Virus record (IMG/VR): IMGVR_UViG_3300028897_000279
Location: 1 to 36,329 of that record
DNA length: 36,329 bases
Origin: a virus
Direction: 5' to 3' (one strand)
Positions within the stretch are counted from its first letter, which is position 1. Each line of letters begins with the position of its first letter. The notes beneath the pieces are model-generated. The model did no database searches. It saw nothing but the letters and a program-made list of their open reading frames with translations, and was not told the origin of the DNA. The position numbers and the translations under genes are program-made. Shown piece after piece: positions 4,242 through 35,971 of the stretch.

Positions 4242-4244
4242 ATC

Positions 4245-4517: not shown

Positions 4518-4531
4518 AACAAATAATTTTA

Positions 4532-4548: not shown

Positions 4549-4552
4549 GATT

Positions 4553-5491: not shown

Positions 5492-5509
5492 TTTATTATA
5501 TTTTTTAGA

Positions 5510-6085: not shown

Positions 6086-6091
6086 GTTATT

Positions 6092-7798: not shown

Positions 7799-7895
7799 AG
7801 TTAAATTTTTTATAAAAATAATTAATTAATATTTTATTTACAAAATTAACTGTCTTATTATCATTAAGTTATACAATGTAAATATTAATTATACA

Positions 7896-10671: not shown

Positions 10672-10673
10672 GT

Positions 10674-11195
10674 TTAAAATGTTACTATATTAAATGTTTT
10701 TGCCGCTTCGCTATAATTTTTTACTTTTTTAGTCATTTCATTTGTATCGAACGAAATAGAAACAGGAACGTTGATTGTAAAATTATACGTCGCTCCTATA
10801 GTTTCTCCTTGTAAATAAAGAGAAAACGGAATTCCTCCGCTTTCTCCTTGCAAATAAAAACTTATAGGAGTGGGGTCGGTTTCCCCCTGTAAATATAAAT
10901 CGAGATATACATAGCCATTAATTATGTTATTTTCTGTTATATATATTCGACGCTGAGTACTATCCCATTTGTCATTTAACATATTTTCAAGAGAAAGATG
11001 TTGTCCGCAATAATTTAAAAATAACATTGTCTGATACTGAAATGTATATAAAGTATCTGAAAGTTCTTGAATCGGAGTAATTACTGATCTTAAATAAGGG
11101 ATAAGTTTTGATTCTTGCTCTGTTTTTGTTTTTCTCCAAAAACTAGGGGTCAAATTTTCGACAACATTATACCAATTAATATTAAAAATACTCAT
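10674..11195 (-). CDS. Baseplate protein with triple YLQGE motif
   Basis: 173 residues. The N-terminal 80 residues (SFWRKTKTEQ, YLRSVITPIQELSDTLYTFQYQ) resemble small baseplate-wedge proteins that follow the J-like gene. Residues about 95-140 hold three copies of a F/LYLQGE motif spaced by 13-14 residues, likely a small beta repeat. Four bases overlap the J-like gene. Probable baseplate part; the repeat region is discussed as a finding. Confidence 0.6.
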   Translation of the reverse strand: MSIFNINWYNVVENLTPSFWRKTKTEQESKLIPYLRSVITPIQELSDTLYTFQYQTMLFLNYCGQHLSLENMLNDKWDSTQRRIYITENNIINGYVYLDLYLQGETDPTPISFYLQGESGGIPFSLYLQGETIGATYNFTINVPVSISFDTNEMTKKVKNYSEAAKTFNIVTF

Positions 11196-12076: not shown

Positions 12077-13382
12077 TTTTTAATTCTTTTTTATACATAT
12101 TCTGAACTTTATTCATTATAGATACCACTTTGTTTTCAGAAGCAGGTAAAATATTACTGTCTAATTCATAGCTTGTTTTTTTAGTAACTTCTTCAACTGG
12201 TATCATATATCCAGACTGACTTAATTTCTGTATGTTCTCAACGTGCTTGCTTATATCTATTTGTTCAGAAAAATCCCATTGCCCATATAATTTCTTTTCG
12301 CTTGATATCATTCCTATTTTTTTCATTCTAGGAATTAAGTCATTGTTTATTGTTGTTGATATATCCAGTTTGTCTGCTAAAATAACATCTCCCAATATAC
12401 CTTTGTGGACTTCTGCCGATCCCGCATATGATTTTTCATCTGTCGTCCCCGTTTGTGAAAGTATTATTTTTGAAATTGCTTGATCGCATTTTTCTATCAG
12501 CATTCCATAAATATTATGAGGGTCATTGCCTCCTTTTTGTTCGATAAACTCTATTTCATCTTGCGGATCTTGAATAACATATGTAGAACCTGTCATGGCT
12601 TCAAACATATCTATCAGGTTTTGACGCCTTAAATTGTCTTTTAAGTCCGTTTTGCCAACTCTTAACGGCATGCCGAATCTATCCGCATGTTCTGCCCAAG
12701 AGCCAAAAACGTTTTTATAAATAATATAAGGTGCGCACTTGTTGATTAGTCCTAAATCTGTTTCGCTTCCCATTCCTATTAACCAAGTGTTTTGAGGGGC
12801 TTCATCTATATTTACCTGGTTGATTGTGTCTCCCTGTATAAAAGAACGTCTCACATCTAACATAATAGTGTGATGATAAGGGATAAGATTTTCTTCAGGA
12901 AATTTTTTCACCCACTCAAAACTGTCATTAATCACATCTCCTAATTGTACAATCTCATACCCATAAAATTTTGATAACATTTTTATGATCATAAAAGATC
13001 GAAACCATGGCAAAGGAAATCCCTTTGGATCGAGAAATTTTTTTGTTTCTTCTTCATCGATTTCACCATCTTCGTTCATTATTTTAAACGATCCTGATGT
13101 CGCTTTGTTTATGCGAGTTTGCATTGCTGAGAAAAGTTGATAATCATCTATAAAATCTCTATACATTTTAATAAGCTCTTCACGGCCTGGATTGTCTATG
13201 TCTTCTGCGTTTTCAACGGCATCTCTCCAATCTCCTATATCTTTTGAAATCCTATCTAGTGTTTCTGGCTTTATTTGATGAAGTATATTAGATTTTTTAG
13301 GAATAGATGTAGATATATTTTCAAATCTGCTTTTTAAAGTTTGATTTATTCGTTTGTTTATATAGTTGTCTAATATTCCCAT
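12069..13382 (-). CDS. Portal protein, Mu gp29-like (DUF935)
   Basis: 437 residues, the usual length of the DUF935 portals. Recognisable blocks: DYQLFSAMQTRINKA, FPLPWFRSFMIIKMLSKFYGYEIVQLG, YIIYKNVFGSWAEHADRFGMPLRVGK and ISKIILSQTGTTDE followed by GSAEVHKGI. Such portals form the dodecameric ring at the head vertex through which terminase packages DNA. It lies three bases after the gp36-like gene. The WAEHADRFG-x-P block is highly typical of Mu gp29 homologues. Confidence 0.88.
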   Translation of the reverse strand: MGILDNYINKRINQTLKSRFENISTSIPKKSNILHQIKPETLDRISKDIGDWRDAVENAEDIDNPGREELIKMYRDFIDDYQLFSAMQTRINKATSGSFKIMNEDGEIDEEETKKFLDPKGFPLPWFRSFMIIKMLSKFYGYEIVQLGDVINDSFEWVKKFPEENLIPYHHTIMLDVRRSFIQGDTINQVNIDEAPQNTWLIGMGSETDLGLINKCAPYIIYKNVFGSWAEHADRFGMPLRVGKTDLKDNLRRQNLIDMFEAMTGSTYVIQDPQDEIEFIEQKGGNDPHNIYGMLIEKCDQAISKIILSQTGTTDEKSYAGSAEVHKGILGDVILADKLDISTTINNDLIPRMKKIGMISSEKKLYGQWDFSEQIDISKHVENIQKLSQSGYMIPVEEVTKKTSYELDSNILPASENKVVSIMNKVQNMYKKELKNG

Positions 13383-13384
13383 GA

Positions 13385-14137
13385 TTAATATTTATATGGG
13401 TTTGTTGTCGATGTTCCAAAACTAAATCTTTCTGTATTTTGTTCGGTTAATCCATCTTCATCTACTTTTACATCAAGATTTGGTGTTATTATACCTTTTT
13501 GTACTTTTTCGAGCCACCCAATTGCATGTTCTGATTTATCTTTATTGCCAGCTCCATCATATCTTATCTGTCTTATTTCAGGAATATCTCTTGGCGTTAT
13601 TCTTGAATGAATATTATAAAGAACGATGTCAATTACTACTGTTTTAAGTTTGGGTTCTCGATTATCCCCTATTGTAAATTTTAGTGTATCAGTTGGTAAA
13701 TCCCCGTCTATTGTTGCAGCTTTACAAACATAAAAAGTATTGTTGTCTGCTTTAAAATCCCACTTTGCAGGATGTGTCAAAGGTGTTTCTCCAGCATTTA
13801 CAGATTGATTTGCTATATAAATTTTTTCATCAATTACAGGACTAGTTCCTATGTCGAAACTTATTTGATCACCTGTTACGTATGTTGATAATGGGTTGTA
13901 AGCTGTCGGTGACCAAAAGACCCTGTCTCCTATTGCATATGTTGCTGTTTTGCTATATGTCTGAACAACACGAAAAGCTTTGTCTTCATCATATCTGTTT
14001 CTGATATATCCGGCAGCTTCAGAAATGGCTTCATCAATAGAATCATTTATAAGGCGATCTGTAGAATTTGTGATTTCATCCAGGTTTATTTCTTGAATTA
14101 ACGTTTCAAAATCATACTTTACTAGAAATTTATCCAT
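13385..14137 (-). CDS. gp36-like head-tail adaptor with inserted CBM-like repeats
   Basis: About 250 residues from ATG 14137; the frame extends upstream to a TTG at 14158, but the ATG gives a typical start (MDKFLVKYDFETLIQEI). The first 70 residues (SDEAISEAAGYIRNRYD-like helices) and the last 90 (VIDIVLYNIHSRITPRDIP, then R-Y-D-G-A and LEKVQKGIITPNL) match the Mu gp36/DUF1320 family, which is normally about 140-160 residues long. The middle (about 65-145) is an insertion with two Y-x-x-G-D-x-V/I units (YAIGDRVFW, YVTGDQISF) like a carbohydrate-binding module of the chitinase type, which may project from the neck. Confidence 0.68.
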   Translation of the reverse strand: MDKFLVKYDFETLIQEINLDEITNSTDRLINDSIDEAISEAAGYIRNRYDEDKAFRVVQTYSKTATYAIGDRVFWSPTAYNPLSTYVTGDQISFDIGTSPVIDEKIYIANQSVNAGETPLTHPAKWDFKADNNTFYVCKAATIDGDLPTDTLKFTIGDNREPKLKTVVIDIVLYNIHSRITPRDIPEIRQIRYDGAGNKDKSEHAIGWLEKVQKGIITPNLDVKVDEDGLTEQNTERFSFGTSTTNPYKY

Positions 14138-14227
14138 TGCAAAAAGTATTTTTTTCAAAATTAAAACAATTTAAAGATATTAACAAATTGATTTATAATT
14201 AATTAACTATTTACTTTGTACAATTTG

Positions 14228-14259
14228 TTTGCATAAATGCATTTAATTTAATATTTTTG
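14228..14259 (+). promoter_or_regulatory. Bacteroidota-type promoter for the HTH pair
   Basis: TTTG at 14228-14231, exactly 20 bases, then TATTTTTG at 14252-14259, matching TTTG-N20-TAnnTTTG. The first HTH gene starts 14 bases after the -7 box, so its leader is very short. It lies opposite the leftward virion operon start. Confidence 0.75.
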
Positions 14260-14272
14260 CTTAAAACACCTT

Positions 14273-14455
14273 ATGAACGATAAGATCAAAAAACTTATAG
14301 AACATCAAGTGAAAAGTGAAATTTCGGAAACAAAAATGTGTACTGATATAGGTATTGCTAGAATGACTTTTTACAATTTAAAAAATGAAATTACACATCC
14401 TCACGAATCAACAATAGAGCAAATCAACAAATATATGTGTAAAAATGTCATTTGA
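14273..14455 (+). CDS. Small HTH protein
   Basis: 60 residues. MCTDIGIARMTFYNLKNEITHPHESTIEQINKYM has the layout of a minimal helix-turn-helix of the XRE/Cro type (recognition helix around RMTFYNLK). It has its own consensus promoter and overlaps the next gene by 11 bases. It lies on the strand opposite to all flanking genes, so a regulator of the divergent virion operon is a reasonable inference. Confidence 0.65.
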   Translation: MNDKIKKLIEHQVKSEISETKMCTDIGIARMTFYNLKNEITHPHESTIEQINKYMCKNVI

Positions 14456-14708
14456 AGATAATAAAATCAAACGGTATCAGGAAAGGAAGCCCTTTCGGGA
14501 TGCTGTACGAATCTTCTGTAAGATTAATTTAATTAAACAAAAAACTCTAGCTAGTTCATTAGGTATTACCAATTTAGAATTTGGGTATTTATTAACAGGA
14601 AAGCTAAGTTCTATACCATCGAAAGGGATTGAAAATTATTCTGATTTTGAATACAAAGTTATGAATTTATTGGGGAGCGATTTTACTGAGGGTCAATTAC
14701 AATATTAA
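14445..14708 (+). CDS. Small HTH-like protein
   Basis: 87 residues. The middle (KINLIKQKTLASSLGITNLEFGYLLTGKL) follows the helix-turn-helix spacing of XRE-type repressors, with KTLASSLGI as helix 2 and turn. It is translated in a different frame overlapping the first HTH gene and is convergent with the minus-strand gene at 14697, overlapping it by 12 bases. The two HTH genes probably act together as a regulatory cassette. Confidence 0.6.
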   Translation: MSFEDNKIKRYQERKPFRDAVRIFCKINLIKQKTLASSLGITNLEFGYLLTGKLSSIPSKGIENYSDFEYKVMNLLGSDFTEGQLQY

Positions 14709-14924
14709 TTCATTTGCCCTTGCCAATCTATCTGCTTTTGTTAAATAAATTATCTTAACAAACCTGCCTAATTGCCTATCATAGATTATTTGATGTTCAA
14801 CTTTTTTGTAACAAAACGCAACACTTCTGTATCTATTAGAGCTGCCTGGATTTAATGCTATTCTAGTTAAGTCTTTACGTTGTTTTTGATATTCATTTAC
14901 AAGTTCTTGTTCTAGGTTTGTCAT
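14697..14924 (-). CDS. Small basic protein
   Basis: 75 residues, basic, not recognised. It starts MTNLEQELVNEYQKQRKDL and has a central GSSNRYRSVAFCYKKVEHQIIYD segment. It is preceded by a structured RNA element (14939-15025) that ends 15 bases before its ATG, so it may be controlled by that element. It is convergent with the HTH pair. Confidence 0.5.
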   Translation of the reverse strand: MTNLEQELVNEYQKQRKDLTRIALNPGSSNRYRSVAFCYKKVEHQIIYDRQLGRFVKIIYLTKADRLARANELIL

Positions 14925-14938
14925 AGTTATTTGTTTTA

Positions 14939-15025
14939 AAAAGGAATATGTATCTTGCTCAAGGATCAGAATGCATTCAATATTCGGTTAGCATATGTCG
15001 AATACCTGTTTTGCATATTCCTTTT
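14939..15025 (-). ncRNA. Structured RNA element, 87 nt
   Basis: A perfect 12-bp outer stem (AAAAGGAATATG at 14939-14950 pairs with CATATTCCTTTT at 15014-15025) encloses about 63 nt with an inner 6-bp hairpin TATTCG/CGAATA (14981-14986 and 14999-15004). On the minus strand the 3' stem side is followed by an A-rich leader to the 14924 start codon, and the stem ends in CCTTTT, a terminator-like U-tract. It could be a small phage RNA or a cis element of the downstream gene. No known family was recognised. Confidence 0.55.
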
Positions 15026-15049
15026 GTTTGTTAATGCTTATCATTAATA

Positions 15050-15241
15050 TCATAAATTTTTTACTCTAAAAACCATATATCCATTAAATTCAAATAATCG
15101 TTTAGTATTATTATCTATTTCTTCAAATCTATATTTACTTATTGTATTATACTTAATTCCATAATGTTCACAGAACTTTTTTAGATTAGTCCAGCATTCA
15201 GGAATGGGAGTTAAGTATATTATTGATGTTTGTCTATTCAT
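15050..15241 (-). CDS. Small protein with promoter at its start codon
   Basis: 63 residues, starting MNRQTSIIYLTPIPECWTNLKKFCEHYGIKYN. The region WTNLKKFCEHYGIKYNTISKY resembles the helix-turn-helix start of small phage DNA-binding proteins. A TATATTTG box at 15246-15253 is placed so that the expected transcript start is the A of the ATG (leaderless); its -33 element is weak. A function in control of neighbouring genes is possible but unproven. Confidence 0.6.
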   Translation of the reverse strand: MNRQTSIIYLTPIPECWTNLKKFCEHYGIKYNTISKYRFEEIDNNTKRLFEFNGYMVFRVKNL

Positions 15242-15245
15242 ATTG

Positions 15246-15253
15246 CAAATATA
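15246..15253 (-). promoter_or_regulatory. -7 box (TATATTTG) of a leaderless promoter
   Basis: TATATTTG on the minus strand; its G is five bases before the A of the start codon at 15241. The same spacing occurs at 19931 and 28794. The -33 position carries only TGCG, so this copy is the weakest of the three. Confidence 0.5.
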
Positions 15254-15302
15254 ATAATAATATTTGAATTATACGCAACGAACTTCGATAATTTTTGCGC
15301 CT

Positions 15303-15908
15303 TTATTCTAATTCTTCAAGGTCTAAGACTACGTCACTTGATGCTGTAAAAGTAAAAGGTATTTCATTTCTAAAACCTTCTATTTGTGGCATACTGAATT
15401 GTTCCACAACAATTTGATTGACTTCTAAAATTTCATTTAAATACTGGCTTATTACATCTATTTGTTGTGGCACTTCCATTATTTCTCTAAATGTCCTAAG
15501 ATCATTTATTGGTAAGGCATTGAATATATTTGATATAAATCCTCGAGCATTAATTATCCAGTCTTGATCTGATACATATTCTTTTACTGTTCCATTACGC
15601 CCTTGAATTGCAGTTTTTACAATATTTTTTGCTTTTGACGCTTCAAAAATTATTGTTTCTATTCTTATGCCAGCAAATGTAATCGCATTACCTTCTAAAT
15701 CTATATACTCACCTGCCGGAATTTCTAACAAGTCCATAACAGGGGTGCGATACTTAGAAATGCTTACTGGTAGTTCGGGACCAGACAAAGGTATATTAAA
15801 AGATGGTTTACGAATTACTCCCAATGCCGCTCCTGTTATTAAAAAGTCTTTTTTTGTTTTTGGGAATATATCTGAAGGGTTTGGAGCTTTGAATATCTTT
15901 ACTGCCAT
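15303..15908 (-). CDS. DUF6046-like phage protein
   Basis: About 201 residues from ATG 15908 (the frame runs up to a GTG at 15947). The block IRIETIIFEASKAKNIVKTAIQGRNGTVKEYVSDQDW is strongly reminiscent of the DUF6046 domain of Bacteroidota phages, where the core is V-K-T-x-hydrophobic-x-G-R-x-G-T-V-K-E-Y. These proteins are thought to belong to the tail or baseplate, but their role is not known. The ATG start is favoured because a good promoter lies at 15923-15954, between GTG and terminase stop. It is separated from the other virion genes by the small-gene module. Confidence 0.75.
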   Translation of the reverse strand: MAVKIFKAPNPSDIFPKTKKDFLITGAALGVIRKPSFNIPLSGPELPVSISKYRTPVMDLLEIPAGEYIDLEGNAITFAGIRIETIIFEASKAKNIVKTAIQGRNGTVKEYVSDQDWIINARGFISNIFNALPINDLRTFREIMEVPQQIDVISQYLNEILEVNQIVVEQFSMPQIEGFRNEIPFTFTASSDVVLDLEELE

Positions 15909-15922
15909 GACTTTTGTTTTTG

Positions 15923-15954
15923 CAAATTTAAAATATTTAATAATCACTTACAAT
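15923..15954 (-). promoter_or_regulatory. Promoter for the DUF6046-like gene
   Basis: ATTG (15951-15954), 20 bases, TAAATTTG (15923-15930) on the minus strand, overlapping the end of the terminase gene. It supports the ATG at 15908, 15 bases downstream of the -7 box, as the true start. Confidence 0.6.
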
Positions 15955-18509
15955 TAATATCGTTTATTTCTATATCCGACAATTGGGGTTATATTCATAT
16001 CTTTTCTTTGAAATCTACTATATTCCGACTCGAACGCTCTGATTATCAGATAATCCAAGCTATCCGAGCAATGACCGTATCTTTCATACCTTATCTTTGT
16101 TCTTACGTCTGTTTCCAATTGTTTAAATTTCGTCCCGTCTGGCGCTTCTTTTACAAACCTTAAATCAGCTATTGAATTATGACATCTAGGATCAACATAA
16201 AAATAAATCCCATCTTGATTATTTGATAGAATTTCATTTATAAAATTTCCTCTCATAGCAACTGACGGGTTAGCCTTAGGAACTCTCATTGATGGATTAA
16301 ACTCCGAAATATATTTGCAAAATAATGTAAAAAAGTTTTGCCCCTTTTCTAATTTAGTATCTTGTTTTTTGCTTGTAGCATCACCATATACAAACACACC
16401 TGAATAATGACCACTATATCTCAAAGAAAACTCTAATGCTAATTCTTTAAGTGTATTTTTCGGATGAACCAAACATACTTCATCTATTTGATAAATCGTT
16501 TTTTCTTTTATTTGATAGATTGTGCCTGTGATATAGGGATGCACATTTTCATCTAATGATATGTGAATTGCTGAATTTGGATCATATTTGCATGATCTTA
16601 TATGTTTGCTTTCATTAAATTCTTTGTAAAATTCGTTTCCATATTCCATTACTTTAGGATTCTGCTGCTGCAATGCTTCAAATTTTATAGGATTACGCTG
16701 CCTTGCTTCCAATGCAGATTCTAAAGAATGTATTTCTGGCCACAACGCTTCACCTGTTTTTCTCGGATCATCAGGATTGGAATTGTCTACTTTTATTCGC
16801 GGAAATACTATAACTTCCCAATCTTTAGAAAATTCATCTTCACTATGTTTTAATATTCTGCCTGCTAAATCATCAATATTCCATCTAGTAAGCGTAATTA
16901 ATATTTGACTATTGTTATTTAATCTTGTTTCTAATTCTGAAGTATACCATTCCCATAATTTTTCTCTATATATTTGTGACCCTGCTTCTTCCGCTCCTTT
17001 AATCGGATCGTCAATTAAAGCGATATCAACAGGATTACCGGTAATGCCACCCCCTACTCCGACTGATATAAACGATCCATTTTTATCCACTATTTCAAAT
17101 TGTTCTGAATTTCTCAAATATGCCCCCTTTGAATCGGTAGCAACATTTTTCGAATTTAGTTGCGTATCCGGAAATATTTCTGAATATGATTTATCTGTAA
17201 TTATTCGCTGAACTTGTCTATTAAATTTACTGGCAAAAGTAGTGTTGTAAGCACATAAAGCGATTCTTAAATTCGGATTACGCCCCAACATGTACGCGGG
17301 TAAGCGTCTTGATGTTAGTTCACTATTATGAGTAGGTATTAAATCGTATCCAGCTAAATACATTCCATCTTCTACTTGAATACAATTCCCTTCAACTTCT
17401 CCGTGATTAATTATTTCTTTTATAAAAAACTTATACTTATCATTTCTGTCTAGCATTACTTTATTTGTTAATCTTTTCTGCTTCCTTTCTAATGCGAAAA
17501 TATTTTGCGTTTTATCTGGATTGAATAATATTCTTGTTTTATACCCTACTATTCGCCCATCTAATTTTGATTTATATGTTTTTTTTCTTGCTTTAATTCC
17601 TAATGTTCGTAATAAAATATAAACATCTTCAGCTAACCGCCCTTTTTTTTGTGTAAATTCACAATTGCCCCTTTTGTCTATACACCCATCAGTATCCATT
17701 AATCCTCTCAGTAAATTAAATCGTTGTTCTTTAGATGAAAGTATAAAATCTATTGGAATATGTTTATTTAATAATAAATTATTTTCTCTTAATTGCGTCG
17801 TTAATCCTTTTATAAGAACTCTATATATACCCGGTTTTACTTCTCTTGATTCGCCTAATTTGCTAAAATGAGAAATATCTTCTTTGCCTACAGTTAGTAC
17901 GCCCTGTCTCGAATGCCCATCTCCTAACCAACACCCTAATATATATGGATCTATCGGTATTTGACTTTGTTTTATATCCAATGGCGGGGATATGTCAATG
18001 TATGGCGATCTTCTATTTTTTCTTTTAAATATTTCTTGAGTCTCAAGTATTACACTTTTTCTTCCTTTGCGTTTGTCATATTCAACTTTAAGATTCCATA
18101 AATGTTCTTTTGCTGCAAATAAATAATTCCCATCATTAAATATTACTTTTTGAACATTCCAATTATAAATACCAGAATTTAATATGACTTTCTTAGGTTT
18201 TCCATCTTGTCCAAATACATAATCACTAGTTGTTAAATCTCCATGATTTTTCCATCCTTTAGTAGTTAAAATCGGAGTATCTGCACTAAGCAATTTGCCG
18301 TGTTGCGGACTCATAAATACCATCATTCGCTTAATTTCACCACGTGCAAATTTATTTAGTTTGTCGCACAATACTTTGTGATGCCAATTAACTATGTAAT
18401 CTTCTTTTGTATATAATGTAAAGGAAAGTATGTCATCTTTTGCTTTTTCACAAAGCTTTTGACGTTCTAATGTGTATAATTCTTCAAGTAACTCAAGCTC
18501 ATTCGTCAT
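15954..18509 (-). CDS. terL: Terminase large subunit interrupted by an intein
   Basis: 851 residues: N-extein 1-72, intein 73-395, C-extein 396-851, giving a 528-residue spliced terminase. The Walker A loop SPQHGK-S is split between Lys72 and Ser396. The C-extein has Walker B-like IALIDDP (about 496-502), a TRW motif (ITLTRWN), and a C-terminal RNase H-like nuclease part ending with GHCSDSLDYLI. It is the motor that packages DNA into the prohead. It overlaps the small-subunit gene by 11 bases. Without splicing the ATPase loop would be destroyed, so the phage depends on intein activity. Confidence 0.93.
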   Translation of the reverse strand: MTNELELLEELYTLERQKLCEKAKDDILSFTLYTKEDYIVNWHHKVLCDKLNKFARGEIKRMMVFMSPQHGKLLSADTPILTTKGWKNHGDLTTSDYVFGQDGKPKKVILNSGIYNWNVQKVIFNDGNYLFAAKEHLWNLKVEYDKRKGRKSVILETQEIFKRKNRRSPYIDISPPLDIKQSQIPIDPYILGCWLGDGHSRQGVLTVGKEDISHFSKLGESREVKPGIYRVLIKGLTTQLRENNLLLNKHIPIDFILSSKEQRFNLLRGLMDTDGCIDKRGNCEFTQKKGRLAEDVYILLRTLGIKARKKTYKSKLDGRIVGYKTRILFNPDKTQNIFALERKQKRLTNKVMLDRNDKYKFFIKEIINHGEVEGNCIQVEDGMYLAGYDLIPTHNSELTSRRLPAYMLGRNPNLRIALCAYNTTFASKFNRQVQRIITDKSYSEIFPDTQLNSKNVATDSKGAYLRNSEQFEIVDKNGSFISVGVGGGITGNPVDIALIDDPIKGAEEAGSQIYREKLWEWYTSELETRLNNNSQILITLTRWNIDDLAGRILKHSEDEFSKDWEVIVFPRIKVDNSNPDDPRKTGEALWPEIHSLESALEARQRNPIKFEALQQQNPKVMEYGNEFYKEFNESKHIRSCKYDPNSAIHISLDENVHPYITGTIYQIKEKTIYQIDEVCLVHPKNTLKELALEFSLRYSGHYSGVFVYGDATSKKQDTKLEKGQNFFTLFCKYISEFNPSMRVPKANPSVAMRGNFINEILSNNQDGIYFYVDPRCHNSIADLRFVKEAPDGTKFKQLETDVRTKIRYERYGHCSDSLDYLIIRAFESEYSRFQRKDMNITPIVGYRNKRY
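17325..18293 (-). mobile_element. Maxi-intein with LAGLIDADG endonuclease, class 3-like
   Basis: 323 residues. Start LLSADTPILTTKGW (Leu at position 1 where Cys/Ser/Ala is usual), block B AKEHLW with His64 and Trp66, homing endonuclease blocks ILGCWLGDG (119-126 region) and LLRGLMDTDG (194-203), block F beginning with Cys304 (NCIQVEDGMYLAG), and end PTHN before Ser+1. Trp, block-F Cys and block-G Thr321 correspond to the WCT triad of class 3 inteins, which splice without an N-terminal nucleophile. The endonuclease would spread the intein to intein-free terminase genes at the conserved Walker A site. Confidence 0.85.
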
Positions 18510-31410: not shown

Positions 31411-32325
31411 ATGACAATAGAAAGCACAAACAATAATACACCCACGACACCCGCTATTACTTATAGCGAGTATTACAGGCAGTACGGGATTAATGTACTA
31501 TCACTTTTTGATGGGATTTCTTGCGGACAAATTGCACTTGAAAGGGTAAAAACAAAAGTTAACGAATATTTTGCGAGTGAAATAAAGCCACACGCAATAA
31601 AATGTACGAAAGAAAATTATCCGAATACAAAACACATTGGAAGTGTAATTGATGTTAAGGCGATTGATTTACCAAAGATTGATTTATTAATTGGTGGCTC
31701 TCCTTGCAATGGAATTTCAAGGCTAAATAAAAATCAAGAAGGATTAGAGCATTCAGAAAGTAGATTATTTTGGGAGTATGTTAGACTGTTAAATGAATTA
31801 AAACCAAAATATTTTTTACTTGAAAATACACACGGAAACAAAGAAGCGACAGCTACAATAACTGAAACATTAGGAGTGAACCCAATTTCAATAAACAGTA
31901 AACTTGTTTCTGCCCAAAATAGACCGAGATATTACTGGACGAATATTCCAGGAGTTGAGCAGCCAGACGACAAAGGAATTACAACGGTAGATGTTTTTGA
32001 TTATGATGGACAAATTGCAGACGATTGTAGAATAAAGTGGCTCACAAATAAAAGTGGAATAAAGAGCATTGAAAAAGGCTATGCAAGAGTAAATCCATAT
32101 CCGAAAAGTGGTTGTTTAACAGCAAATGGGCATAAAAAATGGAATGAAAATTACTTATTAAAAGATGGTATATATTACTATCTTTCAAAAAATGAACTTG
32201 AAAAATTACAAACATTACCAACTGGATATACATCAATGTTAAATTACTATGAAGCGTATGATTGTATTGGCGATGGATGGACGGTTGATGTTATTGCACA
32301 CATTCTTAAATATGCACAGTGGTAG
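31411..32325 (+). CDS. C5-cytosine DNA methyltransferase
   Basis: About 304 residues from ATG 31411 (a TTG at 31384 is in frame upstream). Motif I VLSLFDGISCGQ, motif II ASEI, motif IV GGSPCNGIS with catalytic Cys, motif VI LLENTHGN (E-N), motif VIII QNRPRYYW, then GCLTANGHKKW, a motif IX-like ELEKLQTLPTGYT and motif X IGDGWTVDVI. It would methylate C5 of cytosine in phage DNA, probably against restriction or to mark DNA. Codons 1-20 form a separate leader not related to the enzyme: the inverted-repeat arm starts at codon 21 and there is no in-frame start codon between it and motif I. Confidence 0.9.
   Translation: MTIESTNNNTPTTPAITYSEYYRQYGINVLSLFDGISCGQIALERVKTKVNEYFASEIKPHAIKCTKENYPNTKHIGSVIDVKAIDLPKIDLLIGGSPCNGISRLNKNQEGLEHSESRLFWEYVRLLNELKPKYFLLENTHGNKEATATITETLGVNPISINSKLVSAQNRPRYYWTNIPGVEQPDDKGITTVDVFDYDGQIADDCRIKWLTNKSGIKSIEKGYARVNPYPKSGCLTANGHKKWNENYLLKDGIYYYLSKNELEKLQTLPTGYTSMLNYYEAYDCIGDGWTVDVIAHILKYAQW
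31452..31468 (+). repeat. Hairpin in the methyltransferase leader
   Basis: CGCTAT, 5 bases, ATAGCG: a perfect 6-bp hairpin three bases before the left arm at 31471. Hairpins occupy the corresponding position in the 35745 unit and the long palindrome at 33982. Confidence 0.75.
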
Positions 32326-32339
32326 TATTGCCTGTAATG
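31471..32339. repeat. Inverted repeat flanking the methyltransferase body
   Basis: Left arm TATTACAGGCAGTAC (31471-31485) against right arm GTATTGCCTGTAATG (32325-32339): 13 of 15 pair, the other two are G-T wobbles. The left arm starts exactly at codon 21; the right arm begins with the G of the TAG stop codon. It therefore encloses the enzyme body only. Confidence 0.85.
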
Positions 32340-32587
32340 CAGGTTATATGAGACGGAAATTTTAAATATAATTAATATGAGAAAAAGAGAAGAATTCGAA
32401 CAGATGACTGAAGTCGAATTATTTGACGAAATAATAGATGCTGTACAAGGCGACATGTGGGACGGGATGCGATCCAAAACTTTAATTAAAGAAGAAAGAT
32501 TAATGAAACAAGTATTCGCTGAAAAAATGCGCAAAGCTGGTATTAAGTGGGATTAATTTTATTTGGAATTTATGGCTTATAACCTGC
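32339..32587. repeat. Inverted repeat flanking the 59-residue ORF unit
   Basis: GCAGGTTATA (32339-32348) and TATAACCTGC (32578-32587), a perfect 10-bp pair with a GTT/AAC core. It begins at the last base of the methyltransferase right arm, so the two units are directly adjacent. Confidence 0.8.
32377..32556 (+). CDS. Small acidic protein in a cassette-like unit
   Basis: 59 residues: MRKREEFEQMTEVELFDEII, a middle with VQGDMWDGMRSKTLIKEERLM, and KQVFAEKMRKAGIKWD. Helical and acidic then basic. The ATG lies 38 bases after the left arm and the stop 21 bases before the right arm, so it has its own start codon, unlike three other units. Not recognised. Confidence 0.6.
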   Translation: MRKREEFEQMTEVELFDEIIDAVQGDMWDGMRSKTLIKEERLMKQVFAEKMRKAGIKWD

Positions 32588-32732
32588 GATGTTGTCGAAG
32601 CGTGAATAACCGATACAGTTGATTTGAAATACAAATAAAATTAAAAGCGATGGCACAAAAGTTTATAATTGGAAAAAGAATAATAATTAAATATTTTGAG
32701 GGTGGATTTTTTGACATTATTATTTAATATTA

Positions 32733-32764
32733 TTTGGCAATATAAAATATTATGATTATATTTG
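32733..32764 (+). promoter_or_regulatory. Promoter for the 212-residue gene
   Basis: TTTG (32733-32736), 20 bases, TATATTTG (32757-32764). Full consensus. The gene starts 27 bases later. The 32557-32732 stretch before it holds the end of the cassette-like junction and a 25-codon ORF too short to trust. Confidence 0.75.
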
Positions 32765-32790
32765 TACCGAACAATTAAAGTTAAAAGTTT

Positions 32791-33429
32791 ATGGAAACAC
32801 AAAAAATGACAATTCACAGAGCATTATCAGAATTAAAATTGATTGATGCGAGAATCGAAAAAGCAATTAATGTAGTTGAACCAACTGGATTAATGCAATT
32901 AAATAAACCTGTAAACGGATTTATAGCTAAAGAAGATTTTGAAAAAGATGTTTTGGCAAAATATCAATCTGTAACAGATTTGATTGAACGTAAAAATGCA
33001 ATTAAATCAGCTATTGTAAAAGCTAACGGAACTACTCTTGTAAAAATAGGATTAAAAGAAATGACTATTGCAGACGCTATTAACTTTAAAACAGTAATAG
33101 CCGTAAAAAAGAACCTTATTAACAGATTAACACAGAAACATAATTCTGTTAAGGCTAGATTTACGCAAGAAAATGAAAAAGTAAATAACGTTGCTTTAGA
33201 GAATGCCAAGATTATGATTGGCAAACAAGGCGATGATAGGGTTAAACCAACCGATGAAGATGTAAAAAACATTGTTGAACCATTTGTAAAAAGAAATGAG
33301 TTTCATTTAGTTGATCCTTTAAAGGTTGAAGAACTTACAGAAAAATTACAGGTTGAAGTTGATGAATTTGAAGCCGAAGTTGATGCTGTACTTTCAGAGA
33401 TTAATGCAATAACAATAATTAACATTTAA
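32791..33429 (+). CDS. Conserved helical phage protein
   Basis: 212 residues: MTIHRALSELKLIDARIEKAI at the start, then ANGTTLVKIGLKEMTIADAINFKTVIAVKKNLINRLTQKHNS and a C-terminus FEAEVDAVLSEINAITIINI. It resembles a class of phage and conjugative-element proteins with a long antiparallel helix and conserved A-I-x-x-x-N-x-x-T; the C-terminal D-A-V-L-S-E-x-N-A-x-T is striking. Function unknown, but the full-strength promoter suggests high early expression. Confidence 0.65.
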   Translation: METQKMTIHRALSELKLIDARIEKAINVVEPTGLMQLNKPVNGFIAKEDFEKDVLAKYQSVTDLIERKNAIKSAIVKANGTTLVKIGLKEMTIADAINFKTVIAVKKNLINRLTQKHNSVKARFTQENEKVNNVALENAKIMIGKQGDDRVKPTDEDVKNIVEPFVKRNEFHLVDPLKVEELTEKLQVEVDEFEAEVDAVLSEINAITIINI

Positions 33430-33468
33430 AATAAATTATAAGGAATGCCGATGCGAAAAACACAGACT

Positions 33469-33549
33469 TAACACCCAGCTTGAGGGTTAGAAAAGCAACT
33501 GTTTGCTAAACAGATTTACTTTCGGGTTCGAGTCCCGATTTCTCCACCA
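33469..33549 (+). tRNA. tRNA-Ser(GCT) lacking its 5' acceptor strand
   Basis: D-arm GCTT/AAGC (33478-), anticodon arm ACTGT-TTGCTAA-ACAGA with anticodon GCT (33505-33507), a variable loop of only 7 bases (short for Ser), T-arm TCGGG-TTCGAGT-CCCGA, 3' acceptor TTTCTCC, discriminator A and encoded CCA (33547-33549). The seven bases that should form the 5' acceptor strand (33469-33475, TAACACC) do not pair with TTTCTCC. Probably a decayed or rearranged tRNA. Confidence 0.6.
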
Positions 33550-33555
33550 AAAAAC

Positions 33556-33602
33556 GGAGAAATGGCGAAATTGGTAACCGCACTTGACTTAGGATCAAGC
33601 CG
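33556..33602 (+). pseudogene. 5' half of a tRNA-Leu(TAG)
   Basis: GGAGAAA acceptor strand, D-arm GCG ... CGC with AATTGGTAAC loop, anticodon arm CTTGA-CTTAGGA-TCAAG with anticodon TAG (Leu, CUA). The sequence then becomes unrelated to a T-arm; no T-arm or 3' acceptor is seen in the next 180 bases. Its acceptor GGAGAAA is the exact complement of TTTCTCC of the tRNA-Ser sequence six bases upstream. Confidence 0.65.
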
Positions 33603-33763
33603 TAAAAAATGACAAAAGAAAAGTTCAAGGATTAAAGATGAAGGCAAAAAGTTAAAAATTAAAAGTTCTTACGCATTAAAGATTAAAACGTAAAATGCAA
33701 AGTTCTTTTAAACCCCTGATAAAAGTTTATAAAAGTATTTGTTAATTGACTTAGTGTTTTGTA
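33603..33763 (+). other. Non-coding spacer with short A-rich repeats
   Basis: No gene, T-arm or promoter found. It contains several AAAGTTC and ATTAAAG words (for example near 33621, 33661 and 33701) and leads into the terminator. It may be the transcribed tail of the tRNA region. Confidence 0.4.
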
Positions 33764-33789
33764 CAGGGCTGCATCGGTAGCCCTTTTTT
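33764..33789 (+). terminator. Rho-independent terminator
   Basis: AGGGCT (33765-33770), 8-base loop, AGCCCT (33779-33784), then TTTTT. A clean terminator for the tRNA-region or upstream transcript, just before the RHH gene. Confidence 0.85.
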
Positions 33790-33800
33790 AATACAATATT

Positions 33801-33944
33801 ATGAAGATAAGAAGAAGCGTAACTATTGATTCAGAATTAGAAAAAGACATTGAAAAGCAAGCTAAAAAAGAAAATAGAAACTTTTCAAATATGGTTTCTG
33901 AAATGGTTAAAAAATATTTAACGGCTTTGAAAAAGCCGAAATGA
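33801..33944 (+). CDS. Ribbon-helix-helix DNA-binding protein, 47 residues
   Basis: MKIRRSVTIDSELEKDIEKQ, then a basic helix (KENRNFSNMVSEMVKKYL). The pattern (strand VTID, helix ELEKDIEKQA, turn NRNFSN, helix MVSEMVKKYL) is the ribbon-helix-helix fold of Arc/CopG-type regulators and antitoxins. It follows a terminator and has no toxin-like partner in the next gene. Probably a small repressor. Confidence 0.75.
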   Translation: MKIRRSVTIDSELEKDIEKQAKKENRNFSNMVSEMVKKYLTALKKPK

Positions 33945-33981
33945 GCGCAGGAGAAAAATATTTAATTATTTCAATTATGCA

Positions 33982-34045
33982 CAAACCAATACTACTTATA
34001 ACAAGCATAGCGTTTGATATGCTTGTTATAAGTAGTATTGGTTTG
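33982..34045. repeat. 28-bp perfect palindrome
   Basis: CAAACCAATACTACTTATAA... at 33982-34009 pairs base for base with 34018-34045 across an 8-base loop. A TGCA pair flanks it after a two-base bulge. The inner part has TTATAAC ... GTTATAA, like the R'' and R' core boxes of attC. It lies 37 bases after the RHH gene. Confidence 0.9.
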
Positions 34046-34153
34046 AGTGCATTATTGAGCGTGAAGCTTCGCTTACGCTTAGTTGTAAATGCACTCGTGC
34101 GATGAGGGTGTGTATTGGACGGTGTTGATGTGAGCGCAAATATTACTTATAAC
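34025..34153. repeat. Inverted repeat bounding a gene-free unit
   Basis: GTTATAAGTAGTATTGG (34025-34041) against CAAATATTACTTATAAC (34137-34153): 15 of 17 pair. The 95 bases between them are higher in GC (GAGCGTGAAGCTTCGCTTACG, CACTCGTGCGATGAG) and contain no trustworthy ORF. It ends with AAC (34151-34153) that is also the start of the next unit. Confidence 0.7.
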
Positions 34154-34466
34154 ACTCCGAAAGATATTGGAAGAATTTTTAATACATTAAATTATAAATT
34201 ATGGAAGAAAAATTATTAAATAAGATTAAGGATAATAACAGAATAATTGAAGAATTTTCTAAACATTTAATTAAAGATTTTAACGATCCTTATAAATACG
34301 GAATTCATAGAAATATTATAGCCGAAAGACTTGAAGAAAATTCTGTATTAGAACATGTATTAAAATATTACCTATTATCTTTTAGTTAGGCTTTGTCGCT
34401 TGTCATAGCACAAGTTTTACAGATACGTAGCAGGCAATGTGCGGAAGGTATATCTTTCGGAGTGTT
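34151..34466. repeat. 17-bp inverted repeat around the 62-residue gene
   Basis: AACACTCCGAAAGATAT (34151-34167) is perfectly complementary to ATATCTTTCGGAGTGTT (34450-34466). The two ends carry AAC and GTT, each shared with the adjacent unit. Confidence 0.88.
34201..34389 (+). CDS. Small helical protein, 62 residues
   Basis: MEEKLLNKIKDNNRIIEEFS then IKDFNDPYKYGIHRNIIAERLEENSVLEHVLKYYL. Acidic and helical. The ATG is 50 bases into the unit. Not recognised. A TPR-free helical hairpin; no membrane or metal motif. Confidence 0.6.
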   Translation: MEEKLLNKIKDNNRIIEEFSKHLIKDFNDPYKYGIHRNIIAERLEENSVLEHVLKYYLLSFS

Positions 34467-34500
34467 AGGCTCAATCGGTTTTGGATTAAAATTAGAATGT

Positions 34501-34704
34501 ATGAATAGAATAAAAGAAATATTACAGGAAAAAGGAATTAAACAAAATTGGCTTGCTAACAAATTAAGTAAAAGTTACAATATGGTAAATTCTTATGTAC
34601 AAAACAGAAGGCAACCGAGTATAGAAATTTTGTTTAAGATTTCAAAAATTCTAAGTGTAAATGTTAGAGATTTACTAAATGATAATTTTAATGAAGGGTT
34701 GTAA
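34501..34704 (+). CDS. XRE-family HTH protein
   Basis: 67 residues from ATG 34501: MNRIKEILQEKGIKQNWLANKLSKSYNMVNSYVQNRRQPSIE and LFKISKILSVNVRDLLNDN. Q-x-W-L-A-x-K-L-x-K-S-x-x-M-V-x-x-Y-x-x-N-R-R-Q-P is a clear Cro/CI-type helix-turn-helix. The frame is open further upstream to a TTG at 34393, through the repeat arm, but the ATG has the expected start. Probable repressor or plasmid-type regulator. Confidence 0.85.
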   Translation: MNRIKEILQEKGIKQNWLANKLSKSYNMVNSYVQNRRQPSIEILFKISKILSVNVRDLLNDNFNEGL

Positions 34705-34730
34705 GGAGGGAAATTAAAAATTATATACAA

Positions 34731-34940
34731 ATGGATATAGAAGATAAATTAAACAAAATTATTGAATATCAAAACGATAATTCAGTACATCCGCTAACTT
34801 GCGGAAATGATAGCTCACATACTCCGCTTATTCCTATACTACAAGGTGATAACATAGTTTTGATATGTGCTGATTGTAGTTACTCTCAAAGTTATATTCC
34901 TGATATAATTTTTAATAAAGGAAGGAGCGCAAGCGATTGA
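34731..34940 (+). CDS. Small Cys-containing phage protein, 69 residues
   Basis: DIEDKLNKIIEYQNDNSVHPLTCGNDSSHTPLIP, then ICADCSYSQSYIPDIIF. The H-P-L-T-C-G-N-D-S-x-H ... C-x-x-C pattern, typical of a short Bacteroidota phage family, looks like a zinc ribbon. Its last codons (GRSASD) lie in the right repeat arm and the TGA falls inside it. Co-directional with the HTH gene. Confidence 0.7.
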   Translation: MDIEDKLNKIIEYQNDNSVHPLTCGNDSSHTPLIPILQGDNIVLICADCSYSQSYIPDIIFNKGRSASD

Positions 34941-34952
34941 GCCTAACGGGCT

Positions 34953-35066
34953 ACGGCTATGAGCAGTAGCGGAATACGAAGAAATTAATAATCAAAAAAC
35001 AAATACTTATGATACGAGAACAGAACATTCAAATTAGCAGCAACACAGCTATTGCTTATGAGCCGT
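34953..35066. repeat. Imperfect palindrome between the HTH unit and the 35009 gene
   Basis: ACGGCTATGAGCA (34953-34965) pairs with TGCTTATGAGCCGT (35053-35066), 12 of 13 with a one-base bulge. It encloses the promoter-proximal region and first codons of the 35009 gene. With GCCTAAC upstream and GTTAGC downstream it resembles an attC of about 130 bp. Confidence 0.7.
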
Positions 35067-35398
35067 TGTTAGCTGCTGGGCTTTCTGAAATACCTGTGTA
35101 TGGTTCAGAAGCGGTGTGGGTGCAAAATGCGAATTACCCAAACAACTACACTCTTTGGAGACAAGACCTAATACTTGGTAAAAGTTGGCTACATGACAAA
35201 ACAAGAACTCGCATTTTTGGGTGGACTGAAGAAGTAGATTATGGAGAAAGAAAAGGAATGATTGAGGCTTCTATACCAAAAATACCCGAAGATGAAAACG
35301 ATGGTGATTGTGAAATAATAGGCTACTTTGATTCGGTTGCAAGTGCGATGGCAAACATCATTGAAAGAAACCACCCTAATTATGGAATAAGGACTTAG
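35009..35398 (+). CDS. Hypothetical protein expressed through a 20-codon leader
   Basis: 129 residues. First 20 codons form a leader ending AIAYEPL; the left repeat arm starts in codon 21 and the body (LSEIPVYGSEAVWVQNANYPNN...) has no Met until about residue 85, so it cannot start independently near its beginning. The body has a conserved look (NNYTLWRQDLILGKSWLHDKTRTRIFGWTEEVDYG) and a C-terminal DSVASAMANIIERNHPNYGI. Function unknown. The TAG stop coincides with the right arm. Confidence 0.65.
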   Translation: MIREQNIQISSNTAIAYEPLLAAGLSEIPVYGSEAVWVQNANYPNNYTLWRQDLILGKSWLHDKTRTRIFGWTEEVDYGERKGMIEASIPKIPEDENDGDCEIIGYFDSVASAMANIIERNHPNYGIRT

Positions 35399-35409
35399 CC
35401 TTGCAGCTA
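35070..35409. repeat. Inverted repeat flanking the 35009 gene body
   Basis: TAGCTGCTGGGCT (35070-35082) against AGCCTTGCAGCTA (35397-35409), 11 of 13. The left arm starts in codon 21 of the gene; the right arm starts one base into the TAG stop (35396-35398). Confidence 0.75.
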
Positions 35410-35490
35410 GTGTTGAGCGTAAGATGTCGTTGCGACCTGAACGCACAAACTTCGATTTGAAATACTAACGTAATAATTAAATATTTTTAT
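35410..35490 (+). repeat. Junction DNA with a GTCG/CGAC hairpin
   Basis: Higher-GC junction after the 35009 gene: a GTCG-TTG-CGAC hairpin (35426-35436), with weaker outer pairing, then a GATTTGAAATAC word that also occurs at 32620-32631 in the junction after the 59-residue gene. The shared word may be a conserved junction element. Confidence 0.5.
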
Positions 35491-35742
35491 ATGTATAATA
35501 AAAGAACTTGGTTAAATACAGAGACTTGTGATAGTACTAGCTCTATTGTCGCTTTTGATGGCACAGTGACTGATATTGATACAAAAAACGAATACACGCA
35601 AAGATTTTTAGAAATTGCGGATTGTAGAAATAAGGTAAGATTACACAAAACAAGTGATGATAGTGACAAAGATTTCTTAAATAAAATGAAGTTATTAAAA
35701 AGCGAAATAGAGCAATTTATATATTACTTAGAAAATATTTAA
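35491..35742 (+). CDS. Conserved small phage protein, 83 residues
   Basis: MYNKRTWLNTETCDSTSSIV then AFDGTVTDIDTKNEYTQRFLEIADCRNKVRLHKTSDDS, and a C-terminal helix with LLKSEIEQFIYYL. The start N-K-x-T-W-L-N-x-x-x-x-x-S-T-S-S-I-V and the FLEIADCRNKVRLH block are a familiar conserved pattern in Bacteroidota phages, function unknown. It starts with its own ATG. Confidence 0.75.
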   Translation: MYNKRTWLNTETCDSTSSIVAFDGTVTDIDTKNEYTQRFLEIADCRNKVRLHKTSDDSDKDFLNKMKLLKSEIEQFIYYLENI

Positions 35743-35744
35743 TT

Positions 35745-35915
35745 ATGGGCAAACAGCAGAAACCTAAAAACAACGCGATAACCCAGCAATGCATTTTACG
35801 CATTGTTAGGTTTAGCGAAGCGGAGGTTTGCAAGCTACGAGCTTACAAAAATGGCAAATGCACACTTTATACAAACAAAGATTGCTATAAATGCAGCTTT
35901 TACTTGCAAACTTAA
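35745..35915 (+). CDS. Small Cys-rich protein through a 20-codon leader, 56 residues
   Basis: Leader MGKQQKPKNNAITQQCILRI (20 codons) contains the CAATGC/GCATTG hairpin; the body VRFSEAEVCKLRAYKNG..., with three Cys in CTLYTNKDCYKC, begins at codon 21 and has no Met. The stop TAA is the start of the right repeat arm (35913). The C-x-x-x-x-x-x-x-C-x-x-C pattern may bind a metal. It opens two bases after the previous stop. Confidence 0.6.
   Translation: MGKQQKPKNNAITQQCILRIVRFSEAEVCKLRAYKNGKCTLYTNKDCYKCSFYLQT
35760..35813. repeat. attC-like hairpin in the leader of the 35745 gene
   Basis: Outer AAACCTAA (35760-35767) pairs with TTAGGTTT (35806-35813); inner CAATGC (35787-35792) pairs with GCATTG (35800-35805) over a 7-base loop. 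About 54 bp, close to the typical attC length. GTTAGGT at 35805 fits the GTTRRRY box exactly; the left box ends in AAA instead of AAC. Confidence 0.72.
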
Positions 35916-35921
35916 ACCTAA
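35806..35921. repeat. Double inverted repeat around the 35745 gene body
   Basis: TTAGGTTTA (35806-35814) with TAAACCTAA (35913-35921), and GTTTGCAAG (35826-35834) with CTTGCAAAC (35903-35911), both perfect 9-bp pairs nested. They enclose the gene body. The left arm starts at codon 21, the right arm starts with the stop codon. Confidence 0.85.
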
Positions 35922-35971
35922 TGGCTTGAGAAATATGGGAAGGAAGTTTTATAATAAATAAATATTGGAAT

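Follow-up and report, generated by a model that had tools for sequence, protein, structure and literature searches.

The DNA stretch analyzed here (the window) comprises positions 1 to 36,329 of virus record IMGVR_UViG_3300028897_000279 and raises the question of why three of its genes have bodies that open with an inverted-repeat arm and are preceded by a short leader carrying the start codon. The three open reading frames start at 31411, 35009, and 35745 in the program-made list. Their left arms begin at codon 21, at positions 31471, 35069, and 35805, respectively, as an earlier note on this sequence had described. The right arms are located at or just past the stop codons (Table 1). The stop codon of the first gene (TAG, 32323–32325), which encodes a C5 cytosine methyltransferase (MTase), overlaps its right arm, and that of the 35009 gene (TAG, 35396–35398) lies barely within its own. 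The MTase arms correspond to inverted repeat I8 (79% over 24 nt). The arms of the 35009 and 35745 genes are short (10–14 nt) and weak when taken alone; a relative with an intact form, L153, has the 35009 body bounded by GTTAGCTGC...GCAGCTAAC. The MTase body, which matches PF00145 of Pfam with an E-value of 3e-32, contains no ATG, GTG, or TTG ahead of motif I, and the 35745 body contains no methionine, so the observation that these bodies are without a usable start also stands. We interpret the three genes as remnants of an integron-like mobile cassette array in a Bacteroidota phage, and assign this reading a probability of roughly 85%.

Table 1. Features of the cassette array in the window; a slash within a sequence marks a boundary.
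Feature	Coordinates	Strand	Description
C5-MTase leader	31411–31469	+	Start codon and attC-like 3' arm (31450–31469, CCCGCTATTACTTATAGCGA); 5' arm absent, site truncated
Start-less C5-MTase body	31470–32338	+	Inverted arms G/TATTACAGGCAGTAC and GTATTGCCTGTAAT (to 32338)
Possible next site	32339–32587	+	Arms GCAGGTTATATGAG and GGCTTATAACCTGC, by eye; without clean AAC/GTT
Perfect-stem site	34154–34463	+	AAC/ACTCCGAAAGATAT ... ATATCTTTCGGAGT/GTTAGGC; inverted repeat I9, 18/18 complementary
Cassette body	34464–34947	+	GTTAGGCTCAATCG ... CGATTGAGCCTAAC; inverted repeat I20
attC-like site	34948–35067	+	AAC/GGGCTACGGCTATGAGCAGTAGC ... GCTATTGCTTATGAGCCGTT/GTTAGC
Start-less body of 35009 gene	35068–35411	+	129-aa fusion; left arm G/TTAGCTGC; right arm GCAGCTAGT (to 35411), AGCCTTGCAGCTAGT with AAC decayed to AGT
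Enlarged attC-like site	35412–35804	+	5' arm GAGCGTAAGATGTCGTTGC (35415–35433); 3' arm GCAATGCATTTTACGCATT (35786–35804)
Start-less body of 35745 gene	35805–35922	+	56-aa fusion; GTTAGGTTTA ... TTAAACCTAAT; right arm AAACCTAAT (to 35922)

A cassette of the proposed array would consist of an attC-like hairpin site of approximately 120 nt, followed by a body with GTTA...TAAC inverted arms. The copies in the window are partly decayed: several AAC boxes are mutated, and the MTase site lacks the 5' arm, which was not found within 700 nt upstream (best score of 18 versus a shuffled mean of 20.8). The site at 34948–35067 has a structural scan score of 38, with none in three whole-window shuffles, and a homologous site in L153. 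Its loop and 3' arm hold the start codon and leader (35009–35067) of the 35009 gene. The perfect-stem site scores 33, which shuffles reach only occasionally, and carries a 62-aa gene (34201–34389) in its loop. The cassette body behind it contains a small Cro/C1-type helix-turn-helix gene (34501–34704, with its own ATG) and a 69-aa gene (34731–34940). The stem of the enlarged site scores 33, compared to a mean of 23.0 and a maximum of 33 in 200 shuffles; its loop contains an 83-aa gene (35491–35742) and the leader ATG (35745), a layout identical in kind to that at 48153–48552 of phage Freya_9. The possible next site behind the MTase body, with a 59-aa gene (32377–32556) in the loop, was not recovered by the structural scan. 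The loop is occupied by genes in some sites, and certain bodies possess an ATG of their own. With the sites at 34154–34463 and 34948–35067, two degraded ones, and no integrase, the window holds a CALIN, defined as at least two attC sites less than 4 kb apart without an integrase, and detected by our own scan rather than by IntegronFinder or HattCI. The window record, which stops just after the array, yielded no recombinase, and an attI was likewise not found in the window.

Scans of IMG/VR, the contigs of which possibly include host DNA, identified a family of attC-like sites on Bacteroidota phage contigs. The sites are located 5' of the body and have the layout AAC/5' arm, ATG leader, 3' arm/GTTA. 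An attC site is recognized by a long loop and an imperfect hairpin that contains the R and L boxes (RYYYAAC ... GTTRRRY); correspondingly, AAC...GTT is invariant and the arms are paired in 55 aligned diverse sites. Among sites picked by the core motif only, the two outer arms of the stem show covariation (106 of 171 pairs versus 76 ± 6.6 after permutation, 0 of 2000); the structural scan selects complementary arms, so that pairing is not independently supported by its counts. Pattern matches without AAC/GTT (e.g., L138, L169, and L173) were set aside as chance. In attC, extrahelical bases or a comparable asymmetry cause one strand to be preferred for folding. In the present sites, the G.T wobbles lean to one strand (52 versus 11), and the window, L152, L153, and L172 have an extra base in the 3' arm. 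Folding energies display a clear strand difference in some sites only, and energy-based folding of the decayed window site gave no clear difference from shuffles. An Rfam search matched neither attC nor another RNA family to these sites. Neither the window nor the linker had a BLAST match in phage and plasmid collections, and the 35009 and 35745 proteins had none in the phage collections. One 20-mer of the linker matched only two GTDB genomes, and the chromosomal sites were recovered only with a gapped pattern. The CAGTAGCGG core is absent from Polaribacter phage P12002L (L184).

The chromosomal arrays of the same sites (119–121 nt) adjoin a XerA-like tyrosine recombinase, and virus contigs G007 and G031 contain the same kind of recombinase beside cassettes. 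The cultured Polaribacter phages Freya_1–9 differ from each other by whole cassettes beside a XerA-like recombinase, and every breakpoint is at AAC/. The whole-cassette differences in Freya_1, 2, 5, 6, 8, and 9 are mostly additions adjoining the integrase, and site and body are gained or lost jointly. An empty site, GTTTAC/AACACCCC, lies 50 nt upstream of the integrase ORF, has cassettes added beside it, and in this respect behaves as an attI. It is nevertheless conceivable that the XerA-like neighbors are incidental, and that a classical host IntI mobilizes bona fide integron cassettes, with the phages carrying CALINs. The attC-like architecture fits this explanation, as do the two host-type genomes with an IntI above the cut-off and, from Qi et al. 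2023 (PMC9892861), phage CALINs with MTases and the recombination of P12002L attC2 with IntI1. However, an IntI above the cut-off is present in only 2 of the 14 genomes having these sites, and the IntI loci that we read contain no such array; we rejected IntI as the cognate enzyme of the arrays read. IntI integrases possess an additional IntI-specific domain (PMC9668308, citing Messier and Roy 2001). The insert present in IntI L201 is missing from the array-adjacent recombinases L208–L210, L212, and L219–L221, which fall under the TIGR02249 cut-off, score 218.9–237.4 bits with the XerA/XerC-like model NF040815 (cut-off 220 bits), and have XerA (5hxy) as the best PDB match. Furthermore, the Freya phages have their own recombinase beside the variable site. 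We therefore consider mobilization by a host IntI unlikely.

The mobile unit is the site together with the body. Near-identical cassettes are present between unrelated flanks in L008 and L009 (99.9% over 1049 bp) and in L004 and L018 (99.7% over 982 bp); leader and body are common to both members of each pair, and the alignments end at AAC/ on both sides. Forty-seven alignments span exactly from unit end to unit end, and the arms match at 10 or more of 12 nt in 92 of the 112 units with both ends defined. Thus, units move with breakpoints at G^TT and AA^C, as expected of an integron. The earlier note had envisaged a plug-in, in which start-less bodies are received behind a fixed start codon and leader resident in the phage. 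The start-less bodies, the separable modules, and the sharp junction of this proposal are borne out: 26 alignments run from the junction to the right end and contain the body without the linker, the same MTase body has different leaders in the window, L003, L004, L008, L010, and L075, and the same leader class is found on many different bodies. The residence of the leader is not, since the leader is part of the traveling site: it moves with the body between unrelated flanks, and the Freya units, which contain the site, gain or lose both together. In addition, the leader makes up only half of a hairpin, and the complementary half is situated 5' of it. A resident leader is thus highly improbable. 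Homologous recombination between conserved repeats, such as MITE-like hairpins, could shuffle neighboring genes in the absence of a site-specific system, and sites within a class are similar enough for it. We regard it as very unlikely, because the breakpoints are at AAC/ even between unrelated flanks, the sites are uniformly 119–121 nt long and keep AAC/GTT across very different arms, and insertion is repeated at a single site beside the integrase.

The same DNA that mobilizes the gene would also provide its start codon and the N-terminal residues of its protein. One leader is joined to C5-MTase, N6/N4-MTase, PAPS-reductase-like, and Mom bodies, and at least 38 Pfam matches to the MTase, PAPS-reductase, or Mom families were obtained among 95 distinct cassette proteins. 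Among the 89 sites where a single long frame is open at the junction, 79 contain an in-frame ATG, compared to 37/89 and 10/89 for the other two frames. The AIT/AIAY-like element noticed in the leaders is real and is the translated 3' hairpin arm GCTATTRCTTATAG, whereas the fixed length of 20 codons is not general, as leaders of relatives mostly span 14–28 codons. All three reading frames are represented among the leaders, each in agreement with the frame of the body. Just past the junction, the C5-MTase bodies of the window, L003, and L004 vary in length (+1, about −10 nt), which restores the frame with differently phased leaders. In lipoprotein or secreted bodies, the leader reads as a signal peptide across the junction (L150, MKKFKISTVAAIAVYAMLAVVFTSC; L131; L093; L163). 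Some annotated Freya genes, among them the CDS Freya9_76, begin inside the attC-like site, and the predicted peptide junction of leader and body in Freya_2 and Freya_9 is MNTYSKKEQNEQCTIPS/VSSSLFDL. A homolog of the 35009 body outside cassettes has its own ATG aligned at the first residue of the body; the 35009 body is therefore an ordinary gene that lost its start. The absence of a start holds for the window but not as a general rule, as 49 of the 79 leader-carrying bodies have an ATG in the first 25 codons. These ATGs and the weak codon-level constraint on leaders (50 of 180 differences synonymous, 28% versus 19% expected) would fit an accidental leader frame with translation beginning within the body, but such chance read-through is very unlikely, given the excess over the control frames, the compensating length changes, the signal peptides spanning the junction, and the lack of methionine ahead of motif I in the window MTase.

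Returning to the integron-like array, we propose that recombination takes place at the AA^C and G^TT boundaries of folded single-stranded sites, most likely catalyzed by the XerA-like tyrosine recombinase adjoining intact arrays. The genes are flipped relative to attC; each points away from its site, so that the start codon sits in the unpaired loop. The leader peptide, encoded by the loop and the 3' arm, would be translated directly into the start-less body and may be kept in the mature protein. The gene would thereby be self-sufficient for translation, with initiation where the hairpin does not occlude it. The cassettes face the recombinase and may be read by a phage transcript passing through the array. 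We lean slightly towards the view that these arrays represent a distinct integron class of Bacteroidota and their phages, combining a XerA-like recombinase without the IntI domain with a site that serves as a translation-initiation module (start codon, leader, and sometimes signal peptide) for start-less genes, letting phages swap DNA-modification genes.

In classical integrons, the gene comes first and is followed by the site, the hairpin of which, according to the literature, impedes translation of the gene behind it; here, the site comes first and would itself be translated. The VCR sites of the Vibrio superintegron are likewise attC sites of large and nearly constant size (about 120 nt) that are associated with numerous unrelated genes; however, the genes lie 5' of attC, have their own start codons, and a true IntI catalyzes, whereas here the gene is 3' of the site and the start codon is inside it. 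XerA acts on dif-type double-stranded sites, in contrast to the XerA/XerC-like recombinase here, which neighbors an array of hairpin sites. ORF-11 in attI1 of class 1 integrons and related leader ORFs (reviewed in PMC8876359) resemble the leaders in that a recombination platform gives cassette genes translation signals, but ORF-11 is a separate short ORF that acts by translational coupling, whereas the leader described here is located in attC, fused in frame, and moves with each cassette. The claim that such a design is not described for phages was too strong, since phage cassettes of this type, including MTases, are partly published. Qi et al. 2023 (PMC9892861) describe phage integron cassettes and CALINs, for example in P12002L with two MTase cassettes, that share the attC-like hairpins, G/TT and AA/C boundaries, DNA-methyltransferase cargo, lack of an integrase in many phages, and, in one case, a Bacteroidota host. 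The arrays described here differ from those in that the ORF begins within the attC-like site and is directed away from it, and in that a XerA-like recombinase lies beside the array in some phages. In the parts of that paper covered here, we found neither start-less bodies nor leader classes nor signal peptides.

If our interpretation is correct, the cassettes would constitute a mobile element able to make any coding segment expressible on arrival, and would add an IntI-independent integron-like system for a major phylum. The array would give access to an anti-restriction gene pool common to phages. The Freya phages would provide a natural, testable system for the birth of new cassettes, an old question of the integron field.

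All three ORFs that the earlier note had described as meeting an inverted-repeat arm from codon 21, named 31411, 35009 and 35745 by the positions of their ATGs, are present in the window as claimed. The window, a 36,329-base IMG/VR virus contig, has Mu-like phage genes at its left (ORFs identified by eye). A terminase-like ORF seemingly contains an intein. Stop codons lie inside or close to the right arms of the three bodies. The leader DNA GCTATTRCTTATAG, common to the window leaders, is not free-standing; before the 35009 gene its pairing partner is CGGCTATGAGCAGTAGC, which lies roughly 100 nt upstream and immediately follows the GCCTAAC at the end of the previous body. The resulting site shares its layout with the attC site of integrons, AAC followed by the 5' arm and the 3' arm followed by GTT; in the window, the start codon lies in the loop, and the leader runs through the loop and the 3' arm. 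Several sites enclose a complete small gene in the loop, so the boundary can carry genes on either side. Positions 33520-33603 of the window hold a circularly permuted tRNA-Leu(UAG): ARAGORN found nothing in the native order and a tRNA-Leu (tag) with the halves swapped, and Rfam gave a weak permuted-tmRNA similarity.

Features of the window and of compared loci (L-numbers), contigs or genomes (G-numbers) and Freya phages; positions refer to the window unless another record is named
Feature	Position or locus	Sequence	Remark
MTase body	31470-32338		C5 DNA methyltransferase (Pfam, PHROGs)
Body of 35009 gene	35068-35411		no Pfam/PHROGs match
Body of 35745 gene	35805-35922		no Pfam/PHROGs match
Canonical site	34948-35067		35009 gene
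Perfect-stem site	34154-34463		gene in loop
Enlarged site	35412-35804		gene in loop; stem score equals the best of 200 shuffles
Truncated site	at MTase
Perfect 28-bp inverted repeat, 8-nt loop	33982-34045	CAAACCAATACTACTTATAACAAGCATA	just before 34154 site; includes site-like motif TACTTATAAC
Permuted tRNA-Leu, T arm and 3' acceptor with CCA	33520-33549		precedes other half
Permuted tRNA-Leu, 5' acceptor, D arm and anticodon arm	33556-33603
Terminase-like ORF	15954-18509, minus strand	SADTPILTTKGW ... LIPTHNS	seeming intein
MTase-body leader	L003	MSNRITEQPFCQTR
MTase-body leader	L004 and L018	MIEVNLKHQTPNDAKPV
MTase-body leader	L008 and L009	MNIDTTNAPNTTETAIGFIPC
MTase-body leader	L010	MIERDTELQITDEPAIAYSTC
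Signal peptide across junction	L150	MKKFKISTVAAIAVYAMLAVVFTSCDD	by eye
Signal peptide across junction	L131	MKKLKFTTMPAIALYAMLAAGLYGCSN	by eye
Signal peptide across junction	L093	MTKFKFNTKTAIALYAMLAVVLSSCES	by eye
Signal peptide across junction	L163	MKNFKLLTKAAIVGYILLANVFISNAQ	by eye
Freya9_76 CDS	Freya_9, 47839-48141	MNTYSKKEQNEQCTIPS, then VSSSLFDL	ATG within its site
Site with gene in loop	Freya_9, 48153-48552
Chromosomal arrays, 120-nt sites alternating with identical 80-nt or 91-nt hairpins	L208 (G213:C13) 5824-12725; L210 (G069:C33) 3360-15814	GTTGAAGAAGAA...TTCTTCTTCAAC	L210 hairpins flank this 36-bp palindromic mini-body

Linker-DNA scans uncovered a large family of sites. The core CAGTAGCGGA ... 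CCGCTATTG is present in about 95 of them; the arms beyond the core differ, yet are mutually complementary. Among the 171 outer stem positions of 19 non-redundant sites, 106 are paired, versus 76 +/- 6.6 with permuted partners (0 of 2000 permutations), and the gene-sense strand has most of the G.T wobbles (52 vs 11). A structural scan of all viral loci added many more sites, with arms less than 72% alike and an unchanged AAC ... GTT frame.

Leaders and bodies are combined in both ways that the earlier note had proposed to look for. Relatives of the MTase are encoded at 17 IMG/VR loci, and those in cassettes have the same body, with ends TTACAGGCAGTAC ... GTATTGCCTGTAAC, behind differing leaders. 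Many bodies follow the leader M(T/I)...EPAIAYSTC, including the C5-MTase, several other methyltransferase-like ones and a PAPS-reductase-like gene. Junction reading frames vary among the cassette MTase relatives, and the first bases of the body vary in length, with one more base in L003 and about 10 fewer in L004; the reading frame is therefore restored behind differently phased leaders. Non-cassette MTase homologues (e.g. L014, L016) begin with Met roughly six codons later, at NVLSLFDG. The only non-cassette relative found for the 35009 body, L217, begins with an ATG of its own where the body has its first residue.

The body arms agree at ≥10 of 12 positions in 92 of the 112 cassettes with both ends settable. 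Among alignments to other contigs, 47 span exactly from the AAC before the site to the AAC after the body, and loci L008 and L009 share 1,049 bp at 99.9% with no similarity on either flank. The mobile unit is therefore the site plus the body. The earlier proposal that bodies alone are plugged in behind a resident leader holds in part: 26 alignments span the junction to the right end, so bodies are, or were, also exchanged alone, but the 47 end-to-end alignments include the site in the unit. The 95 distinct cassette proteins include 26 N6_N4 MTases, five C5 MTases, four PAPS-reductase-like proteins, three Mom and one HNH; Methyltransf_11, Eco57I and AviRa have one match each, which may overlap the other counts. 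In contig IMGVR_UViG_3300046697_000236 (L021/L219), a tnpB-like ORF, seemingly of IS605 type, lies inside a cassette, right behind the body's short start.

The core pattern occurs in 15 of 395 sampled Bacteroidota genomes, and a reversed control pattern in none. Several of these genomes encode a 272-306-aa tyrosine recombinase 5-30 kb away, and the loci near these recombinases are arrays of 119-121-nt sites. Their genes are mostly on the other strand and point away from the recombinase, each with its own ATG first and the site after the gene, as in classical integrons. In viral contigs the genes are flipped: of 111 bodies, 93 have their longest ORF on the sense strand of the site, and the same automatic count gave nine minus and four plus in the chromosomal arrays. 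Flipped cassettes occur together with an array-type recombinase, downstream on the same strand, in viral contigs G007 and G031 and in the Bacteroidales chromosome G011; the window record, which ends just after the array, has no recombinase. For the array recombinases, NF040815 matches near its cut-off and the PDB match is XerA; the IntI-defining insert (PMC9668308) is missing. The cassette system works like an integron, but strict membership fails on this feature.

The array recombinase, used to search phages, pointed to the cultured Polaribacter phages Freya_1-9, with genomes of 44.0-48.9 kbp (PMC8776804). Around the integrase, Freya_1, 2, 5, 6, 8 and 9 differ by 0, 842, 1744, 2216, 4040 and 4635 bp. 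Freya_2 equals Freya_1 plus 842 bp, Freya_5 adds 902 bp adjoining the integrase, and Freya_6 a further 472 bp, also adjoining it. The 902-bp piece is missing from Freya_8, and a 307-bp cassette adjoining its integrase is absent from Freya_9. All breakpoints between the compared genomes fall directly after AAC. Another Freya site, whose loop encloses a gene and whose leader is MGKQKLHFDKAQALAMHYIPC, is laid out as the window 35745 gene (MGKQQKPKNNAITQQCILRI). A word search of the Freya description (PMC8776804) found neither 'integron' nor 'cassette'. Published work covers phage CALINs with MTases, among them a Polaribacter phage site on which IntI1 is active (PMC9892861).

Just one frame is open for ≥100 codons from the junction in 89 sites, and in 79 of these an ATG lies inside the site, in frame with the body and followed by no stop; the other two frames gave 37 and 10. 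Leaders occur in all three frames, with bodies matching each. In lipoprotein or secreted bodies, the signal peptide, judged by eye, spans the junction and is leader-supplied. Codon-level constraint in the leader loops is weak, though present. Leader ORFs of attI1 aid translation of cassettes (PMC8876359); translation starting inside attC, start-less cassette bodies and recombinases without the IntI domain adjoining arrays were not found in the open-access literature searched.

Cassettes most likely recombine next to the recombinase, at the AA^C of a single folded strand. The phage transcript would enter the array from the side far from the recombinase, so that the recombinase-facing genes would be the expressed ones. 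Since an attC hairpin at the 5' end would hinder a start codon behind it, the start would lie in the open loop, from which the ribosome would read on through the 3' arm. The bodies would then no longer need a start codon of their own.
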